In this document: positions 6,438-31,870 of the stretch, in pieces
Layout of the letters: every line of letters begins with the position of its first letter
How positions within the stretch are numbered: the first letter of the stretch is position 1
Source of the DNA: a virus
Length of the DNA: 33,492 nt
IMG/VR virus record: IMGVR_UViG_3300023179_000311
Coordinates: 1-33,492 of that record
Reading direction: 5' to 3' (one strand)
Notes under the pieces: model-generated
Database searches by the model: none
What the model saw: only the letters and a program-made list of their open reading frames with translations
Told to the model about the DNA's origin: nothing
Position numbers and translations under genes: made by a program

Positions 6438-6707
6438 TTACTTTACTTCGTCGTAAATTTTCTTTTGTTCATTATACCATTCTATCCAAGAATCTACCTT
6501 AGATCTACATAAATGGTATTCAGCATAATTAGACGTAACAACCGTGATTGTTTCACTTAATTTTGTCGTACCCGTGGTTATTTCTTTAAGTTCAGGGCAT
6601 ACTTTCATTAACTCTGTGACTGGTTCTGGAAATTTTGGTTTAACCGGTACAGTAGCAAGACACCCGGACAATAAAACTACTATTGGTAAAGTTATAATAG
6701 CTTTCAT
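6438..6707 (-). CDS. Outer-membrane lipoprotein, probable o-spanin (Rz1-like)
   Basis: The 89-residue protein begins with a signal peptide and a clear lipobox (VVLLSGC, lipidated C16), followed by a proline-containing stretch (PVKPKFPEPV) and a periplasmic helical part. It follows the probable inner-membrane spanin by two bases. Spanin pairs fuse the inner and outer membranes in the last step of lysis of Gram-negative hosts. Here the two genes are adjacent and not nested. The call rests on architecture and context, not on sequence identity. Confidence 0.7.
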   Translation of the reverse strand: MKAIITLPIVVLLSGCLATVPVKPKFPEPVTELMKVCPELKEITTGTTKLSETITVVTSNYAEYHLCRSKVDSWIEWYNEQKKIYDEVK

Positions 6708-6709
6708 AA

Positions 6710-7210
6710 TTACTTAGTCGCTTTAAGTGCTTTACTTTGCTCATCATTTTGATGAAGAGCATTTGAAGGGGGGAGAGTATTTTTTGCAGCCATATTTAGA
6801 ATATCAACTGCCTCGGGAGGTACTTCGCATTTTGCGTCTATAATTTTTTCTACCTCCTTTATTTTTTCTTGAATAACTACTTGAACTTCTTTAACTACTT
6901 TTACTTTATCGCGATACTTATATTGAATAACAGTGTTGGTTTGTTTAGATTTTTCTTCCGCAATAGCAACTTTTTGTTCCATTTCTTTTACTCGGGCTTC
7001 CCACATTTCTTGGTTTGCAGCCCCACCAATTAAATAAACACCAAAAACAAGAACCGCTAAAGAAATAATCTGTAACGGTAATTTAATTGCAATTAGAGCA
7101 GGGAAAAGGCGAGAAAAGAAACTAGTAAATATGGATGCTACTAACCCGACTGTTCCTACTAAGGCTATAGCATATGCTATCCAGGTTGGTAAAAAATTGA
7201 ATATCCACAT
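6710..7210 (-). CDS. Probable inner-membrane spanin (Rz-like)
   Basis: The first 70 residues hold two hydrophobic segments (about 8-30 and 41-66). A long charged helical region follows, rich in K, E, V and Q. Then comes a KCEVPPEAVDILNMA block, which matches the CxVPxExVxxLNxA pattern that I associate with the C-terminus of Rz-like spanins. A typical i-spanin has one membrane segment, so the second one is unusual. The lipoprotein gene that follows is the likely partner. The ATG at 7210 has no good Shine-Dalgarno. Confidence 0.65.
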   Translation of the reverse strand: MWIFNFLPTWIAYAIALVGTVGLVASIFTSFFSRLFPALIAIKLPLQIISLAVLVFGVYLIGGAANQEMWEARVKEMEQKVAIAEEKSKQTNTVIQYKYRDKVKVVKEVQVVIQEKIKEVEKIIDAKCEVPPEAVDILNMAAKNTLPPSNALHQNDEQSKALKATK

Positions 7211-7219
7211 GTAGGTTAT

Positions 7220-7945
7220 TTATTCCTCTTTAGAAACGAATTCATCAGCCATAGGGAATATTTTTGCTATTACTTTAGCACACTCCCTAGCAATCATCGC
7301 ATGTTCTTTTTGTGTTCCATTAGCCGAACGAAGCTGAATGAAATGAATCCATGATCTTAGCGTTCCATTCATGTAAAGGCGGGTTACGGTTAACCCTTCG
7401 GGTAATATTGCTCGAGCTTGCTCTTTTGCAATACCTTTGCTAATAGCCCAAGTATATAGGTCTTTTGCTTTTTCAATAATATTGCGTTGATGTTGTTCCC
7501 ATTGATAAGCTAGATATCTATGCTCATCATTTTTTAAAATATCTAACTCTATGCTATTTTGTCTATTTTTGGTATCTTGAATTCTTGCATGTCGAAAAAC
7601 AAAATCAAGTTCCTGAGTTGGGTCGGCATATCTTTGTGAGAATTCTTGAAATGAGAATGAACGATGGCGTAGTATCTGTCGCGATATGTCTCTTGTAGTG
7701 GTAATTTCGAGACACACAGATACCATTTCAAGAGGCGACCAGTGTTGGTGCTCAATAAGATATCGTATAAGTTTTTCTGACGTCTCTTTGTTGAACTGAT
7801 TGCTTGGATTGGAGACACGCGCACAGAATGCGACAAGCTCCGTAAGATTTTCGGCGAAATATGATTCTGGCTGAGTATAGGAGATAAGCTGAACATTAGA
7901 AATTTCTTCCGTGTAAATAGGAGCGTCAGTCACTTTTATTCCCAC
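7220..7945 (-). CDS. thyX: FAD-dependent thymidylate synthase ThyX
   Basis: Makes dTMP from dUMP using methylene-tetrahydrofolate, NADPH and FAD. The ThyX signature RHRxxSxxxxSxR is exact: R93-H94-R95, S98, S103, R105 (RHRSFSFQEFSQR). The length of 241 residues is normal for the family. The gene replaces the ThyA-type enzyme of T4 and fits with the dCMP deaminase and ribonucleotide reductase of the same block. Its start overlaps the preceding small gene by ten bases. Confidence 0.97.
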   Translation of the reverse strand: MGIKVTDAPIYTEEISNVQLISYTQPESYFAENLTELVAFCARVSNPSNQFNKETSEKLIRYLIEHQHWSPLEMVSVCLEITTTRDISRQILRHRSFSFQEFSQRYADPTQELDFVFRHARIQDTKNRQNSIELDILKNDEHRYLAYQWEQHQRNIIEKAKDLYTWAISKGIAKEQARAILPEGLTVTRLYMNGTLRSWIHFIQLRSANGTQKEHAMIARECAKVIAKIFPMADEFVSKEE

Positions 7946-15385: not shown

Positions 15386-16278
15386 TTTTTTATAACCGGG
15401 GCTTTTGTAAATTTAGGCGCTTTCAAAGGTTTTGTACCCCCTGGAGCAGTAGACTTTTTAGTTCTATAACCTGCAAGACGTTTTTGTTCAATAGATCTCA
15501 TTTTTGGTAACATCTTAGTAGCTATAGCTGACTGCAAGTATTTCATTCTTGATACTTGTTGTTCTATACGATCTTTTTCTGCAGCAGAGAGTGTTGATTT
15601 ATCTCTTCCTCTTAAAAACCGTTGATAAATTGCTCTTCTAGCTGCTACTGCTGCTCGTTTTTTAAGAATATTAATTGAAGAAGCTCTACGGAGTTTCATA
15701 TTTCTTGCGGTGTTACGCTTACCTCTCATTCTTGCAAATGCTTGACGTTTTTTTAATCGCGCTTGAGCTGTAAGACTTTCATCGAGTAACTCTTCTTTAA
15801 TCTCTTCTTTTCCGTCAGTATCATAAATAAGTTCTATATCATCATATAAATCTACTATGTCTTCCCAAGTTAAGTCATCTACTAACTTGTCTATTTCCTC
15901 ATTGCTTAACGTCTCTTCAGAATTTTTTTCTTCTTTTAAAATATATTGACCAAAAGATAAAATAGTATTTTCTTCTACTTCTCCAAAATCTGCTGCAGGT
16001 ATATGAGTATAGGGAAGTTCTTCTATAGTTTTATCTTTTAACCCTGAAAGCCCGAGCATGGTCTGCACATGGGTTTCCATGTAATCTTGGTGCTTATCTA
16101 GAACTCCTAAAGCTTGTAAAGCATCATGCGCTCTTGCTAGCTCGTATGTAAAATCATGTAGCATTCTAGGTGTTGCAAAATTAGCCTCAACCGCTCTTTT
16201 TTCTAAAAACAAATAGTTGTCTGTAGCCTCAAGAGCTGTTTTTAGTAACTCATGCTGTACCTGTATATCTGTAATCAT
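15382..16278 (-). CDS. Virion-type protein with basic C-terminal module, 298 aa
   Basis: The N-terminal half (1-110) is helical; the middle (110-165) is very acidic (EEIDKLVDDLTWEDIVDLYDD); the C-terminal half is strongly basic. The block TAQARLKKRQAFARMRGKRN through KSTLSAAEKDRIEQQVSRMK is a module that I recall from many marine phage proteins (QARLKR...KELSxxxKxxIExRL). The charge split, acid then base, suits an internal head or nucleic-acid-contacting protein. It overlaps the Dps gene by four bases. Confidence 0.7.
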   Translation of the reverse strand: MITDIQVQHELLKTALEATDNYLFLEKRAVEANFATPRMLHDFTYELARAHDALQALGVLDKHQDYMETHVQTMLGLSGLKDKTIEELPYTHIPAADFGEVEENTILSFGQYILKEEKNSEETLSNEEIDKLVDDLTWEDIVDLYDDIELIYDTDGKEEIKEELLDESLTAQARLKKRQAFARMRGKRNTARNMKLRRASSINILKKRAAVAARRAIYQRFLRGRDKSTLSAAEKDRIEQQVSRMKYLQSAIATKMLPKMRSIEQKRLAGYRTKKSTAPGGTKPLKAPKFTKAPVIKK

Positions 16279-16703
16279 TTTGTAATAGCTCTAAACATCC
16301 AGGCATGTTTTTCATGTGCTTGAATTCTGTCCTGTAAAAAATTAGATATACCAATCTCACTTGTCTTTTCCGCTTCGTCATATGCACGAACCAGTTGTGT
16401 AAGTAAAATATCGTTATCCCGTTTTAAATTTAAAAATATACCTCTTGCATCGGGTACTGTGGTGCTTTCTTCTATAGTAGCATTAGATAATAAACTAGCG
16501 AAAGATACCGGGGCATACGCATCTAAAGTTCTTATTAACTCTGCTATTACATCAGCAGAAGAATATACATCTTCATAAAAATTTTGTAGAAATTCATGGT
16601 ATTGAGGAAAGTTAGGACCTTCAATATTCCAATGATAGGAGTGAGCTTTAAAGTAAAGTACGTAAACGTCGGCTAGAAGGGATTTTAAAGTATCAATTAT
16701 CAT
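16275..16703 (-). CDS. Dps-like ferritin (ferroxidase, DNA protection type)
   Basis: The 142-residue protein matches Dps in its first helices (AHSYHWNIEGPNFPQYHEFL). The ferroxidase residues align in spacing with E. coli Dps: H24 to H51, H36 to H63, D51 to D78 and E55 to E82. The equivalent of D67 is a Gln (Q40). Dps proteins form 12-subunit cages that oxidise iron with peroxide and often coat DNA. It has no basic N-terminal tail, so DNA binding is doubtful. It has a good Shine-Dalgarno (AGGAA) and lies inside the virion operon. Confidence 0.85.
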   Translation of the reverse strand: MIIDTLKSLLADVYVLYFKAHSYHWNIEGPNFPQYHEFLQNFYEDVYSSADVIAELIRTLDAYAPVSFASLLSNATIEESTTVPDARGIFLNLKRDNDILLTQLVRAYDEAEKTSEIGISNFLQDRIQAHEKHAWMFRAITK

Positions 16704-16712
16704 AATGTTCCT

Positions 16713-17816
16713 TTAATCAATAGCGTACTGTTTAAATTGCATACGTCTTAATTGCCCGGGTTTCATTGCAATTCCAACTTGAACTTGTTTTTGAATATTT
16801 GTTGTTGGTGTTATACCGTTAGTAATTTGAGTATTCTGTATCTCTGCAGGTCTTAGAGCTATTTCTGGTTCTGCTCCAGGAAAAGGGAGTTGATCTTTAT
16901 CATGACCTGTTTTTTCCCCTATATGTTTACCGGTTCGAATAGAATCTATCATTTCTTTAAACAGTTTGTATGCTCTAGGACACATATCAAAGTTTCTAGT
17001 TTGAATACCATCAAACTCTAATTGGGTTGTTTCTTCATGAAGAGTAGCGCGCTGTGCAGGTGTCATTAAAAGAAAAGGAATTTTTTGTTCTTTAATTTTC
17101 TTTTTAAAGGTATTAAGTGGTTCTCCTGGGGTCATACTTTTCATTTTATCAACACCCTCTTTTTCACCCCATTGATATTTAGAAACCTTGAGGTGAGGAT
17201 CATAAATTTCATTTACATTTAGAGCTTTTCTTACTTTATTATACACTTCGTTCTTATGCTCATCAGATAGTTTAGACAACAAGCCGGATTTAAATTTTTC
17301 TCTATTGCCCGCAATTGCATGTGAGCGTAATTTTGTACCCGACATCCCTGAAACCCCTTCAGCATCAGGGTCTCTTTGGCCAGCAGATACCACCTTAATA
17401 GATTTAAAATTATAGAGTGCACCTTCATGTGTACCGTTGTATTGGTGAAGCTTTTTGTGGTATTCGTCTACGCGATCAGAACCTGCTACCATCACTAAAT
17501 GCTTATGGCCTTGATCATATAGGTGTTTAGCTATATGGAGCATAGATGGCATTTCTTTAGAAGAAGAAGCTACGTGCGCTTGGGGATATGCGTGTTTGAT
17601 TAATTTTACTTTAGTTTCAGCATCTAACGGATTTTTTTTAGCATCTTGCGAATGCGAGGTAAAAATGTGCGGAGTCGCGCTATATTTTTTAGCGGTCTCT
17701 ATAGTTTTGTCAAACAGCTTTTCGTGCCCTACAGTTGGGGGGTTATTACGCCCGTAGGTAAAAACCGCTGTTTTTTCGGTTGCTTCTTTAAATGTATGCA
17801 TAGGTATATTTATCAT
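16713..17816 (-). CDS. Nucleotidyltransferase (cytidylyl/NMN-adenylyltransferase-like) with C-terminal extension
   Basis: The N-terminal 190 residues form a HxGH-type nucleotidyltransferase: FTYGRNNPPTVGHEKLF, with the T/HxGH loop as TVGH, and SGTKLRSHAIAG as the second motif (normally ISxTxxR). The fold and motifs resemble nicotinamide-mononucleotide adenylyltransferases, but the substrate is open. Residues 200-367 are unlike known catalytic domains. The gene lies among virion genes, as in other marine phages. The ATG 17816 overlaps the upstream stop; a second ATG at 17801 gives an MHTFKEATE start. Confidence 0.8.
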   Translation of the reverse strand: MINIPMHTFKEATEKTAVFTYGRNNPPTVGHEKLFDKTIETAKKYSATPHIFTSHSQDAKKNPLDAETKVKLIKHAYPQAHVASSSKEMPSMLHIAKHLYDQGHKHLVMVAGSDRVDEYHKKLHQYNGTHEGALYNFKSIKVVSAGQRDPDAEGVSGMSGTKLRSHAIAGNREKFKSGLLSKLSDEHKNEVYNKVRKALNVNEIYDPHLKVSKYQWGEKEGVDKMKSMTPGEPLNTFKKKIKEQKIPFLLMTPAQRATLHEETTQLEFDGIQTRNFDMCPRAYKLFKEMIDSIRTGKHIGEKTGHDKDQLPFPGAEPEIALRPAEIQNTQITNGITPTTNIQKQVQVGIAMKPGQLRRMQFKQYAID

Positions 17817-18004
17817 TTTTTAGAATGCATGTTAATAAACCAGTGAGCTAGTTGTTTTTCCCTTGGTGATGCAGAATCTGAAGATCTTATCTTTTTTAAC
17901 TGTGAAATAGATTTACCTTTGAGACCGTATCTTGCCATATCGCCCTTATCTTGTGGGTTACGACCGTCTTGAAAGTTTTCTCTAATTTCTTTAAAAGTTT
18001 TCAT
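17813..18004 (-). CDS. Small basic virion-type protein, DUF3008-like
   Basis: A 63-residue protein beginning MKTFKEIRENFQDGRNPQDK, with the C-terminal part SASPREKQLAHWFINMH. The SASPRxKQLAHWxINM pattern is one that I link to DUF3008-type and related phage proteins. The MKTF start is similar to T4 capsid-targeting leaders, though the protease site is not evident. The start at 18004 shares one base with the upstream stop (TGATG). Function unknown. Confidence 0.7.
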   Translation of the reverse strand: MKTFKEIRENFQDGRNPQDKGDMARYGLKGKSISQLKKIRSSDSASPREKQLAHWFINMHSKK

Positions 18005-19719: not shown

Positions 19720-20937
19720 TTACCTTGGTCTAGCAGCAAAATTTGCTCTACTAAACTCTGCTCTATCTACAAACTTTGTCGGTCTGTTATTTCTGATTAC
19801 GACAAAGCCTTCAGGTTTAGCAGGCTTACCACCAGTAATCTTAGTTGATCCAGGTTCAGGTATCGAATGTTCAAATTTAGGTTTAGCAGACAACGAGTGA
19901 ACTAATTGATCTTTAGCAGCCTGTATGTGGTGATGCATATCTAAGATCTTCTGAAACTCATCAGAATGTTTATTTAAATGTGTAAGATCTTTTTGCATCT
20001 TTTCTGTCTTTGTATTAACAGCTTTTGCGGTCTTAACTTTAGCTATACCCTTAAGATGTTGCTCTCTTAAGTGTTCTGTATAACCATTGATCGATGGTTT
20101 AGTGCCTTCTCGTACAGTTGAATTAATATATGTTTTAAGATGTTCTTGATGGCCTTCTAAAGCTTTATATGCGTTTTTAGGTGTAGACTTAAATAAGTCT
20201 GTAGCCATTTTTAAATGATGATTATAGGTTTGTTCTTGATCTTTTGATAGTGAGGTAGGAGCAGCATTCTCCACCACACTAATTGAATGTACATCAGGGT
20301 GGTGTTTAAAATGAGAAAGATCAGCACCATATTCTGCTTTCATATTTTGTAAATTTTTACCATGGTATGCAGTATGAACAGCAATACCAAATTTAGATTT
20401 AGCTATTTTTTTACCCTCAGTAGAATTATGAGGTGTAGAATAAGTTATGGTGTTAGGTTTAAAATGATACTTTCCACCTTCGTCTGTAATATCCCCGTGC
20501 GGGTTAGATTTTGATTTTATACCGGAATGCATTACATCACCTTGATAAACACCCTTAGATGGTACTACTTTGGGTAGATGCTCAAGCGCAGCTTTAAGTT
20601 TAGTAACAAGACCAGGGGCATGGCTGTGATTTTTTTCTATATCTTCTTGGGTGTAATTAAGTTTGGGTGTCTTGTTAAAAGCTGACTTAGATGCAACAAA
20701 AAATTTTCCATTTTCTGGGTTATGACCAAATACAATTGAAGGGGATCCATCATATTTAGTTGTAATTTTAGTATTATTCTTCTTACCTTGAATTTGATCT
20801 TTTACATCTTCAAGGTTATGAAATGCGTGAGCAAACCCTTCTTCACCAGAATTAATAACATGGTCTTCAGCGTGCTCAAGATGAGTTAGTTTTTCTTCAG
20901 AAGCAGCTTCTGCTATAAAAGTTTGAAATGTAATCAT
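19720..20937 (-). CDS. DUF6267-like protein with capsid-targeting-like N-terminus and ligase-like motifs
   Basis: A 405-residue protein. The N-terminus MITFQTFIAEA closely resembles the T4 capsid-targeting leader (MKTYQEFIAEA), whose cleavage follows an [LI]xE site; here FIAE|A at residues 7-11. The rest has features of the nucleic-acid ligase/nucleotidyltransferase superfamily: KYDGSP (K61, the KxDG lysine), GVYQGDVM (129-136, motif III-like), PEGFVVI (375-381, motif IV-like) and TKFV (K388, motif V-like). I recall this as DUF6267. It could be an RNA or DNA ligase-like enzyme carried in the head. It overlaps the upstream gene by four bases. Confidence 0.7.
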   Translation of the reverse strand: MITFQTFIAEAASEEKLTHLEHAEDHVINSGEEGFAHAFHNLEDVKDQIQGKKNNTKITTKYDGSPSIVFGHNPENGKFFVASKSAFNKTPKLNYTQEDIEKNHSHAPGLVTKLKAALEHLPKVVPSKGVYQGDVMHSGIKSKSNPHGDITDEGGKYHFKPNTITYSTPHNSTEGKKIAKSKFGIAVHTAYHGKNLQNMKAEYGADLSHFKHHPDVHSISVVENAAPTSLSKDQEQTYNHHLKMATDLFKSTPKNAYKALEGHQEHLKTYINSTVREGTKPSINGYTEHLREQHLKGIAKVKTAKAVNTKTEKMQKDLTHLNKHSDEFQKILDMHHHIQAAKDQLVHSLSAKPKFEHSIPEPGSTKITGGKPAKPEGFVVIRNNRPTKFVDRAEFSRANFAARPR

Positions 20938-21662
20938 GTTAGTCTAACTATTTGTGCTCCAGCTGGTGTTTTATCTGTAACAACTATACGCCCGGCACTA
21001 TCACCTTTTGATGGAGACTTACCATAAATTTTTGGTACGCCCTGATTATCTTTTGCAGTAGGATCAAAGGTTTGATCTTCTCTTCTTGCTCTGAGTCTAA
21101 AAAACAATTCATGGGTTTTAGCATATTTTTTAGCTTCAGTAAGTGTACCGTTTAATGTAATTATATTCTTCTTAGTGTCATATTGAGATCTTACATCCAT
21201 TGGACCAATGTACATATAGTGAATTGGTCCTCCCATTGCTTCATTACCAACAACAATCTTTATTTTGTCTGCATCAGCAATTTTACCATAAACATCAGGA
21301 ACTTTTGAACCCGCTTTAAGTTTTAAAACTTTGACTAAGTGATTATATGCGGCATTCATAAATTTTTTAGCAATACCGGGTACCGCTAATTCCAAGCCTT
21401 TTAAACCACCACCTGCAAGAGATGGGGCAGCTTCTCCCTTTAAAGAAAGGTTGATAGGATCTTTTTTACCTTGAATGAATAACTGAACATCAGTATAAGG
21501 TTCAGATCCCCCAGCTTGTCTACCAGTAAATTTATCAGCTCTTACTACACCACTAATGGTAACGGACCCGGCTTTTACAGTTATAGGACCAGTTTTTTTA
21601 ACTTGTTTATTAATAGAATCGACAACACCTGTTTCTTGTCGTTCTGCTGCTGCGCCAGCCAT
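20934..21662 (-). CDS. Conserved late phage protein, possibly nuclease-fold
   Basis: A 242-residue protein beginning MAGAAAERQE. It contains GSEPYTDVQL (D58) and then NLSLKGEAAPSLAGGGLKGLEL (S73, K75). The order of an N-terminal Glu-rich helix, D58 and SxK at 73-75 is compatible with a degenerate PD-(D/E)xK nuclease core, but this is an inference from spacing only. I recall the family in marine T4-like phages without a function. It is the first gene after the late promoter at 21688-21695 and has a Shine-Dalgarno (TTGGAG) before the ATG. Confidence 0.7.
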   Translation of the reverse strand: MAGAAAERQETGVVDSINKQVKKTGPITVKAGSVTISGVVRADKFTGRQAGGSEPYTDVQLFIQGKKDPINLSLKGEAAPSLAGGGLKGLELAVPGIAKKFMNAAYNHLVKVLKLKAGSKVPDVYGKIADADKIKIVVGNEAMGGPIHYMYIGPMDVRSQYDTKKNIITLNGTLTEAKKYAKTHELFFRLRARREDQTFDPTAKDNQGVPKIYGKSPSKGDSAGRIVVTDKTPAGAQIVRLT

Positions 21663-30413: not shown

Positions 30414-30772
30414 ATTGAATTTTGACTATCACCTGGAAATACTCTGTAATTATCTTCAACAGAATCTGGTGTAGATACTTCTATAATTGTACCTTCTTTA
30501 ATACAAACTAATTGATGAGGCTGACAGGGGGGATTATGCCAGACATCTCCTCTCATCAATTCAACCTCATGTACAGAGGCATCTGATGTTTTGATATATC
30601 TTACAATAAAATGACCGGATAAAACCGTCCAAGTTTCATCTTTATCTTTATGAAAGTGCATGGAGAACTTTGCCCCTTCATTAAAATTAAGAAACTTACC
30701 ACAATACTTATCATTAGTTGCCCAGATTTTTTCTGAGCCCCACCCTTTTTGTACAAAACCTTCTAGTCTCAT
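30404..30772 (-). CDS. Cupin (mannose-6-phosphate isomerase-like), 122 aa
   Basis: Single-domain beta-barrel protein. The first cupin motif is GAKFSMHFHKDKDETWTVLSG (H39, H41, E46) and the second GDVWHNPPCQPHQL (H83 and H90). This is the type-II mannose-6-phosphate isomerase-like cupin found in sugar-nucleotide operons. It forms a cassette with the HldE-type kinase and transferase upstream. Its stop codon TAG consists of positions 8-10 of the tRNA gene that follows on the same strand, so RNase P would cut inside the last codons. Confidence 0.8.
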   Translation of the reverse strand: MRLEGFVQKGWGSEKIWATNDKYCGKFLNFNEGAKFSMHFHKDKDETWTVLSGHFIVRYIKTSDASVHEVELMRGDVWHNPPCQPHQLVCIKEGTIIEVSTPDSVEDNYRVFPGDSQNSIAG

Positions 30773-31515
30773 AAAATCTCTTCCATAGTTGGAGCATACG
30801 TGCCAATTTTTTGTACTGTAACAGCGCTTGCTTTATTGGCGAAAGGTATCGCAAGTTTTAAATTACCGGTTGTTAAATGAAAGTATGTAAGAGACGCTAA
30901 AAACGTGTCGCCTGCGCCACATACATCAGTTACTTCTATTAAAGGAGAAGGAAATACTTCCTCTTTATATTGAGCACCGCGCTTACCTAATGTAACAATT
31001 AATTCAGATGGCAAAGAAACAGCAAGACTAAATTCTAAACTGTTTATTTTTACAATCGCTCCTTCAAATCTTTTTAGATCTTTTTTCTTAGTGTCGACAT
31101 AAACGGGGCAATCAAAACTTTTAACTATATCTTCTACCAACTCATAAGTGACTGCACCTTTATCATAATCAGAAACAACAACAGCGTCATAATGTAATGT
31201 TTTGAAAGGAAAGATATCTACTGGTGAAGAGCATACATCACGATCAATTCGGGTAATATGATGACCGGTTCTACTATCAATTAATCTAGTTTTCTTTGAA
31301 GGCTCTTGAGTCAGCAATGTTACCACACAGCCAAGTTTTTCTAAATTATTTTGAACATTAAAGACCATACCTGGTTTTTCTTCAGAACGAAGATATTTAA
31401 AAATAGGGACTGGTGCTTCAGGGCTGATGCGATCTACAGTACCATAATGGTACTCATCAATACAGCTATCACCTATTAATAATATTTGAAATGGTTTTAG
31501 TGGAGGAGTATTCAT
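30769..31515 (-). CDS. PfkB-family sugar kinase, HldE N-domain type
   Basis: A 248-residue ribokinase-fold protein. The N-terminal GDSCIDEYHYGTVDRISPEAPVP resembles heptose-7-phosphate kinase (RfaE/HldE domain I), VSDYDKGAV matches its SDYxKG motif, and TDVCGAGDTF (D203 as catalytic base) is the PfkB signature. It is shorter than the bacterial domain (about 318), so some parts are missing. Its gene overlaps the nucleotidyltransferase gene by 47 bases; together they make up a split HldE. The sugar substrate cannot be told. Confidence 0.85.
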   Translation of the reverse strand: MNTPPLKPFQILLIGDSCIDEYHYGTVDRISPEAPVPIFKYLRSEEKPGMVFNVQNNLEKLGCVVTLLTQEPSKKTRLIDSRTGHHITRIDRDVCSSPVDIFPFKTLHYDAVVVSDYDKGAVTYELVEDIVKSFDCPVYVDTKKKDLKRFEGAIVKINSLEFSLAVSLPSELIVTLGKRGAQYKEEVFPSPLIEVTDVCGAGDTFLASLTYFHLTTGNLKLAIPFANKASAVTVQKIGTYAPTMEEIL

Positions 31516-31870
31516 CTATTCGTTCAAAAAATTCTAATCGCTTTGCGTACTGACTACCTATTACAGTTTTATCCCGCCAGTCGCTACCTACCACCATTAT
31601 AGATGGTCTAATTTGTTTTATCCACATCTCAAGCTCTTCACCACTACCAAAAATTTCTACTTCATCTACTGCCTTTAGATTAAGCAACATAGTTTTACGT
31701 TCATAGGCAGTGTGGATTGGTCTGGTTATGCCTTTTAGTTGCTTTACTCTTTCATCACTATCAATAGCAACAAATAATTTATTCCCTAAACTTTTAGCAT
31801 AATTTAGAAGAGCTAGATGACCTAAATGCAAAATATCAAAAGTACCGTTTACGAAAACTGATTTAGCCAT
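31469..31870 (-). CDS. Nucleotidyltransferase, HldE C-domain type
   Basis: A 133-residue HxGH enzyme (VNGTFDILHLGHLALL, H15 and H18) with YSSTKTISNII near the end. It is close in size and motifs to the second domain of HldE (RfaE), which adenylates heptose-1-phosphate. With the kinase gene it could make an NDP-activated sugar; the isomerase and phosphatase of the heptose pathway are not in this window. It overlaps the glycosyltransferase gene by 22 bases. Confidence 0.88.
   Translation of the reverse strand: MAKSVFVNGTFDILHLGHLALLNYAKSLGNKLFVAIDSDERVKQLKGITRPIHTAYERKTMLLNLKAVDEVEIFGSGEELEMWIKQIRPSIMVVGSDWRDKTVIGSQYAKRLEFFERIDEYSSTKTISNIINR

Follow-up and report, generated by a model that had tools for sequence, protein, structure and literature searches.

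A putative head-packaged, ligase-like nucleotidyltransferase of the DUF6267 family in T4-like phages

Gene, predicted fold and active site

Does a viral protein that begins like the internal proteins of T4, and carries in its body motifs in the order of the nucleic-acid ligases, represent an enzyme that is packaged in the head and injected with the genome? The gene in question lies in a 33,492-base virus record, analyzed at its full length (below, the window), where it is surrounded by T4-type replication genes. It encodes 405 amino acids on the minus strand at 19720..20937 (reading from an ATG at 20937 to a stop codon that ends at 19720; the first-pass annotation had given no strand), and its start codon is overlapped by 4 bases (ATGA) by an upstream ORF at 20934..21662, also on the minus strand, for which no family match was found in Pfam or PHROG. 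The suspicion that the protein belongs to an uncharacterised DUF proved correct: it matches Pfam DUF6267 (PF19782, E 8.8e-99; 331.8 bits over residues 18–402 against the curated cut-off of 27) and PHROG 455 (E 5.4e-95), annotated as unknown function. NCBIfam contains no match to DUF6267, and no mention of DUF6267 by name was found in the literature searched. The explanation that we prefer, on a balance of evidence that leans in its favor without being decisive, is a lysine-adenylylating nucleotidyltransferase, most likely an RNA or DNA ligase, packaged by means of a T4-type leader; its packaging, cleavage, AMP transfer, ligation and substrate are all inferred, without activity data. As far as computation reaches, both halves of the first-pass proposal, the ligase-like body and the leader, are supported.

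The AlphaFold2 model, built from a 94-row alignment, has pLDDT 93.4 and pTM 0.90, and only residues 1–20 are poorly placed (pLDDT 54–69). In the VIA-align comparison, rows 1–26 are all chains of the ligase superfamily (Z 9.3–6.7), the best match being the Naegleria RNA ligase NgrRnl (6vt1; Z 9.3, 3.7 A, 184 residues aligned), with the T. brucei RNA-editing ligase TbREL1 (Z 8.1), T4 Rnl2 (1s68; Z 7.9, 3.8 A, 176 aligned), T4 Rnl1 (5tt6; Z 7.4), a fungal tRNA ligase (Z 7.4) and archaeal RNA ligases also among the matches, while DNA ligases rank after the RNA ligases at Z about 6. Scores of 7–9 in this comparison are near the level also reached by common arrangements. The best eight PDB matches in Foldseek are DNA and RNA ligases as well, all of them weak (E 0.037–1.1). 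The first-pass annotation would have been refuted by a fold lacking the nucleotidyltransferase core; this core is present in the predicted fold by both AlphaFold2 and VIA-align, and, judging by the model, we consider the nucleotidyltransferase fold highly probable.

Searches at the profile level are less informative. Comparison with the T4 Rnl2 profile by hhalign is not significant (E 0.24), with motif IV aligned correctly, and for this reason membership in the Rnl2 family is not claimed. With hmmscan, the window protein matches neither Pfam RNA_ligase (PF09414) nor the adenylation profile of NAD+-dependent DNA ligases (PF01653), and PDB sequence searches with the protein itself and with the 94-row profile found no ligase. 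Matches to the ribosomal protein eS8 in the PDB sequence search lie in the helical region, which is rich in lysine, and were attributed to composition.

The motifs on which the ligase reading had been founded are all in place, with KYDG starting at residue 61, GVYQGDVM at 129, PEGFVVI at 375 and TKFV at 387 (so that its lysine is K388), and when the protein was shuffled 200,000 times at constant composition, such an ordered set occurred only 23 times. In an alignment of 94 diverse homologues (29–78% identical to the window protein) 20 columns are invariant, including K61, D63, G64, K84, Q132, D134, H188, E376, G377 and K388. Variability of K61 among homologues would also have spoken against the proposal, and this lysine is retained in 94 of 94 rows. 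Motif I, K61-Y-D-G64 (20746..20757, all motif coordinates being on the minus strand), contains the predicted AMP-accepting lysine, K61; it is followed by the invariant K84 (20686..20688) in the segment FFVASKSAFNK, a possible motif Ia, by the motif III strand GVYQGDVM, residues 129–136 (20530..20553), with Q132 and D134, by a motif IIIa-like strand at residues 183–192 (20362..20391) with H188, by motif IV PEGFVVI, residues 375–381 (19795..19815), with E376 and G377, and by motif V TKFVDR, residues 387–392 (19762..19779), where K388 is invariant and R392 nearly so. In the model a strand at 57–60 directly precedes K61, D134 is on the strand 129–137, and E376 and K388 are at the strands 378–382 and 385–389. 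The order of K61, D134, E376 and K388 along the strands is that expected for motifs I, III, IV and V, and the proposed ligase-superfamily order is borne out, the invariant residues being located on or next to core strands. If the end of the structural alignment is ungapped, the NgrRnl motif IV and V residues E312 and K326 (named in entry titles) may be inferred to lie no more than one residue away from E376 and K388. Transfer of AMP is inferred from the invariant active site of the aligned sequences; no activity has been shown, and the lysyl-NMP intermediate remains putative.

Several features set the protein apart from its closest matches. With Rnl2, NgrRnl and the RNA-editing ligases (Rnl2-like, Rnl5-like), which are its best structural matches, it shares the core and the motif order I (KxDG-like), III, IIIa, IV (EG.V) and V, but it has no detectable profile similarity to them, no Pfam RNA_ligase match and no C- or N-terminal add-on domain, and it has a capsid leader and a helical domain (helices within residues 232–349; 19891..20244, minus strand) inserted between motifs IIIa and IV. 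Most of this insert is absent from short members of the family (about 300 aa: Syn9, S-SM2, Bellamy, S-CREM2). In motif V (K388-F-V-D-R) just the first lysine is conserved, so that the K-x-K criterion of the T4 Rnl2 family is not met, and the acidic residue of motif III is D, not E. With NAD+-dependent DNA ligases the family shares the KxDG motif I, the single motif-V lysine and helices before the core, but it lacks a PF01653 match and the OB, zinc, HhH and BRCT domains, and DNA ligases stand structurally below RNA ligases. Given the helical insert between motifs IIIa and IV, one motif-V lysine, D in motif III and no Pfam ligase match, the window protein is a separate branch.

Distribution and ligase content of T4-like cyanophages

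By tblastn, DUF6267 is present in 469–471 phage records, nearly all of them T4-like cyanophages; the others include the Pelagibacter phage HTVC008M, the Methylophilales phage Melnitz, the Stenotrophomonas phage DLP6, and Vibrio, Pseudoalteromonas and Xanthomonas phages. At least 583 further loci were identified in IMG/VR. Of the phage records, 371 are Synechococcus, 61 “Cyanophage” and 24 Prochlorococcus, and the corresponding numbers for UvsX (Syn9 UvsX as the marker, E below 1e-60) are 374, 61 and 24. As these counts are nearly equal, DUF6267 is close to a core gene of T4-like cyanophages. The gene is often located between UvsX/gp41 and gp61/nrdA.

This distribution is an argument for a different role, that of a replication and repair DNA ligase working inside the cell, to which the leader was added later in some lineages, where it also carries some copies to the head. 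A review describes cyanomyoviruses as lacking any g30 (T4 DNA ligase) homologue and leaves room for a distant unrecognised one (PMC2984593), and both the near-universality of DUF6267 and its place among replication genes would suit such a ligase. Moreover, Pfam RNA_ligase and NAD-ligase models have no matches in the nine large DUF6267-bearing genomes searched (G001–G008 and KC465899), and seven of the nine, including the complete HTVC008M, contain no DNA or RNA ligase recognised by the three Pfam models. On the other hand, the ATP-ligase model DNA_ligase_A_M does match the remaining two (G003 and G004), which carry an ordinary ATP-dependent ligase beside DUF6267, and DLP6 is annotated with gp30; gp30 is in any case replaceable by the host ligase. 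The closest folds are RNA rather than DNA ligases, with no OB domain, and the leader is kept at the targeting positions in most non-cyanophage members. We regard an in-cell replication and repair ligase as possible but rather unlikely, and retain the packaged enzyme as the preferred reading.

Linked PPAT/NMNAT-like protein and split genes

Downstream of the DUF6267 gene of the window, at 16713..17816 on the minus strand, a protein with a PPAT/NMNAT-like fold is encoded (PHROG 3041, E 4e-66; AlphaFold2 pLDDT 93.7; PPAT Z 14.6, NMNAT Z 13.4). A nucleotidylyltransferase of this HIGH superfamily follows DUF6267 in 131 of the 138 loci with enough sequence (95%), at a median distance of –6 bases, and in eight loci the two constitute one polypeptide, in most cases with a single leader at the front. 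The annotation of the partner as a cytidylyltransferase in relatives is rejected by the fold (PPAT Z 14.6, NMNAT Z 13.4): the label is probably wrong, since the model matches PPAT and NMNAT, and the protein is likely an adenylyltransferase as far as the model can tell, with PPAT and NMNAT close to a tie. The partner family (T4-GC190) has been detected in published virions of S-SM1, S-CREM2, S-SZBM1 and S-SCSM1; its members, adjacent or fused to DUF6267 and bearing the same type of leader, are of a different fold and chemistry from DUF6267.

One conceivable role of the partner is to provide or regenerate an adenylated cofactor. If NAD+ were the donor, the ligase would release NMN, the substrate of an NMNAT; this is an inference, and the use of NAD+ is suggested only by the NMNAT/PPAT-like partner. 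The parallel with NAD+-dependent DNA ligases extends, again by inference, to DUF6267 being placed beside or fused to an enzyme able to remake NAD+ from NMN.

The same tight linkage and fusion can be read otherwise, namely that DUF6267 does not ligate at all and, acting in series with the partner, transfers AMP (or groups of NMN or CoA type) to some other acceptor, be it a protein, a small molecule or the 5' end of an RNA. Such a transferase would account for the absence of the usual C-terminal nucleic-acid-binding domain of ligases, replaced by the helical insert between motifs IIIa and IV, and for a motif V reduced to one lysine. This latter point loses weight because NAD+-dependent ligases, too, have one motif-V lysine; moreover, the nearest solved folds are all polynucleotide or tRNA ligases, and no acceptor is known. 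A non-ligating enzyme seems to us doubtful without being negligible. Even with the fold granted, nucleic-acid ligation, which belongs to the preferred reading, is for us evenly poised between being right and wrong.

In one freshwater lineage (L005, L006–L012, L112, L114, L115, L118, L119) DUF6267 is encoded by two ORFs divided at the same point, directly before the helical insert, so that the N-terminal half retains the leader, K61 and D134, and the C-terminal half, E376 and K388. At the six split loci checked, the second start codon is at or overlaps the first stop, several having GGAGG upstream, and the splits in these freshwater contigs look real from their sequences; the division implies an active site of two separately translated chains. 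In L006, an ORF of 305 aa from an unknown family (MGDWSKLITVNFVGGYCGDF...) is located between the two halves (6646–7549). The split of the S-PM2 gene in AJ630128/NC_006820 (L018, 5965–7759) was set aside as an apparent frameshift of that record, as a later record of this phage, LN828717, gives an unbroken match and a 591-aa S-PM2 fusion of DUF6267 and the adenylyltransferase is present in BFVD.

Other genes of the window were observed in passing. The same gene run contains a 142-aa ORF (HSYHWNIEGPNF...) at 16275–16703 (minus strand), which we take to resemble Dps/ferritin-like DNA-protecting proteins. Separate ORFs at 31469–31870 and 30769–31515 (minus strand) look like the two halves (nucleotidyltransferase and kinase) of HldE/RfaE, a heptose enzyme.

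Probable capsid-targeting leader and published virion proteomes

The predicted leader comprises residues 1–10, MITFQTFIAE (20908..20937, minus strand), with cleavage predicted after E10, before A11; it rests on the likeness to T4 ipII and ipIII, on the family profile and on the low pLDDT of this segment. In the T4 record, ATG AAA ACA TAT CAA GAA TTT ATT GCC GAA (MKTYQEFIAE) opens both ipII and ipIII. The likeness to T4 claimed for MITFQTFIAEA is real, eight of 11 residues being identical to the T4 peptide quoted in the first-pass annotation, including F7, I8 and E10; an aromatic residue at position 4 is also shared with IPII and IPIII, the bodies of which are unrelated. The strict pattern [FY]4..[FY]7[LI]8.E10 is found in only 7 of 80,510 random internal 10-mers. 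The accompanying parallel with T4 Alt survives only at the level of function, that of a packaged enzyme which acts as the phage enters its host, known for Alt and envisaged here. Alt, an ADP-ribosyltransferase, has another leader, and the window leader resembles IPII/IPIII, not Alt. Cyanomyoviruses have no alt homologues (PMC2984593).

According to PMC9026906 (citing Mullaney and Black 1996), the first 10 residues of T4 IPIII suffice for encapsidation; residues 4 and 7 are important for targeting, while processing depends on residues 8 and 10 and is blocked when position 10 is Asp. The conserved leader positions of DUF6267 are those that govern targeting and processing in IPIII. The family pattern [FYLI]4..[FYLIM]7[LIVFM]8.[ED]10 was observed in 81 of 137 non-redundant N-termini, 70 of which keep the exact spacing from the initiator Met, and at only one of 1064 internal Met sites in the same proteins. 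Information content is 3.0–4.3 bits at positions 4, 7, 8 and 10, compared to 1.1–1.5 bits at positions 2, 3, 5, 6 and 9, and at position 10, where the pattern would have accepted D as well, all of the sequences have E. Between the leader and the conserved HLEHxED, homologues have a linker of variable length (4 to 17 residues), as might be expected from these sequences for a detachable tag. A gp21-type prohead protease (Peptidase_S77) is present in seven of eight large relatives, including the close relative G001; the window itself is a partial genome. Marine cyanophage members begin directly at HLEH, without a leader, so packaging is not universal in the family. In the window, a small ORF at 17813..18004 (minus strand) opens with MKTFKEIRENF, a weaker leader-like N-terminus known from sequence alone. 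In T4, gene 61.1 (NC_000866, 19130..18966), adjoining the primase gene, encodes a 54-aa hypothetical protein that begins with MKTFKEFIKE.

As a census of leaders in three whole relatives yielded too few genes for statistics (1, 5 and 4, with a narrower pattern), it was replaced by a test against a published virion proteome. In CsCl-purified virions of S-CREM2, the non-structural proteins detected by mass spectrometry include a SAM hydrolase, gp13, a kinase and the cytidylyltransferase (PMC10665884, Table 3), and in the genome (OR473000; L260, L261) these begin with MKDFDSFLEE, MKDLHSFLTE, VKRFDAFLTE and MKNFSSFLTEA, respectively; the virion-detected Cas9-like protein has a shifted leader, LRFASFMAEAA, slightly inside its N-terminus. 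Four of the 52 detected genes have the strict leader, against one of the 167 undetected ones (Fisher p = 0.012; p = 0.029 if another undetected gene is added on the basis of an alternative start). The association is modest and rests on four proteins, most detected proteins being structural and needing no leader, and the S-CREM2 authors state that contamination of the CsCl virions cannot be excluded (PMC10665884). Leader-bearing S-SCSM1_91 (MKSFLQFLKEA) and S-SZBM1_140 (MRFRQFIIEA) are also detected in published virion proteomes, and the leaderless DUF6267 protein of S-SZBM1 (SSZBM1_141, MAKNTHLEH) is absent from the published virion protein list of that phage. In S-CRM01, g131–g127 (L022, 9227–13805) form a run of adjacent leader-bearing genes headed by a leaderless DUF6267 gene, including a kinase (MISFDQFLSE), the cytidylyltransferase/adenylyltransferase (MKLFNQFFKEA) and unknowns; the run looks like an island of internal proteins. 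Kinases have been reported in S-CRM01 virions (PMC10665884). The S-CREM2 set suggests that a list of packaged effectors in Kyanoviridae can be read from the genome.

The N-terminal segment might still be a short amphipathic helix with another use, e.g., partner binding, its likeness to T4 being due to chance or convergence. The residue after E10, A in the window protein, is often E or D in homologues and not A, G or S, so that P1' is unlike T4 in many of them, and the small number of proteins behind the S-CREM2 association also leaves room for such a helix. It would not explain why positions 4, 7, 8 and 10 are exactly conserved while those between drift, with E never replaced by D at position 10, why the leader is common to unrelated virion-detected S-CREM2 proteins (SAM hydrolase, kinase, adenylyltransferase) and to adjacent S-CRM01 genes, or why it stands at the front of most DUF6267–adenylyltransferase fusions. 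We consider the helix improbable, and a capsid-targeting leader very likely. The window protein itself is probably packaged; this is inferred, as no virion proteome exists for its phage, and the indirect evidence favors it because the T4 targeting positions are kept, relatives encode a gp21-type protease, and CsCl-purified virions of related phages contain enzymes with the leader. Least plausible of all is that the ligase fold has lost its catalysis and is retained as an internal protein that binds nucleic acid: T4 has many internal proteins that are not enzymes, and the QGD motif is substituted in some split forms (QME in L009, GGD in L012), but invariance of K61, D63, E376 and K388 over deep divergence is hard to explain without catalysis.

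In the packaged-ligase reading, the enzyme would be made late and its leader would dock on the scaffold core via F4 and F7; the gp21-type protease would cut after E10, freeing the mature enzyme inside the head, from where it would enter the cell with the phage DNA at infection. K61 would then form lysyl-AMP and the AMP would be passed to a 5' phosphate, so as to seal breaks in the DNA that has just entered or in RNA that host nucleases have attacked, in cooperation with the adjacent or fused PPAT/NMNAT-like adenylyltransferase, packaged by a similar leader in related phages. What the analysis itself shows is the fold predicted for the protein, the invariant residues of its active site, the conservation profile of the leader, a prohead protease encoded by relatives, and the linkage or fusion to the partner; docking, cleavage and ejection are modelled by analogy with T4, and among the steps, ligation and substrate are the least certain.

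New in this work are the linkage at 95% of loci and occasional fusion to a PPAT/NMNAT-like enzyme, the natural two-gene splits and the near-universality of the family in T4-like cyanophages. A more speculative combination, which we put forward as tentative only, is a packaged, self-supplied repair module in which a new class of ligase, with a helical domain inside the core and two subunits in one lineage, is injected together with a donor-making NMNAT/PPAT-like enzyme, the leaderless form being the missing ligase of T4-like cyanophages. The N-terminal rule (F4, F7, L/I8, E10) offers a simple way of reading from genome sequence alone which accessory proteins such phages carry in the head; it agrees with what published virion proteomes show for S-CREM2, S-SZBM1 and S-SCSM1. 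A testable function is proposed for a gene that belongs to the core of almost every T4-like cyanophage, occurs in many freshwater and marine phages as well, and was so far known only as a DUF, and DUF6267 becomes a concrete candidate for the DNA ligase apparently missing in cyanomyoviruses. An injected nucleic-acid-joining enzyme, if confirmed, would act ahead of any phage gene expression.
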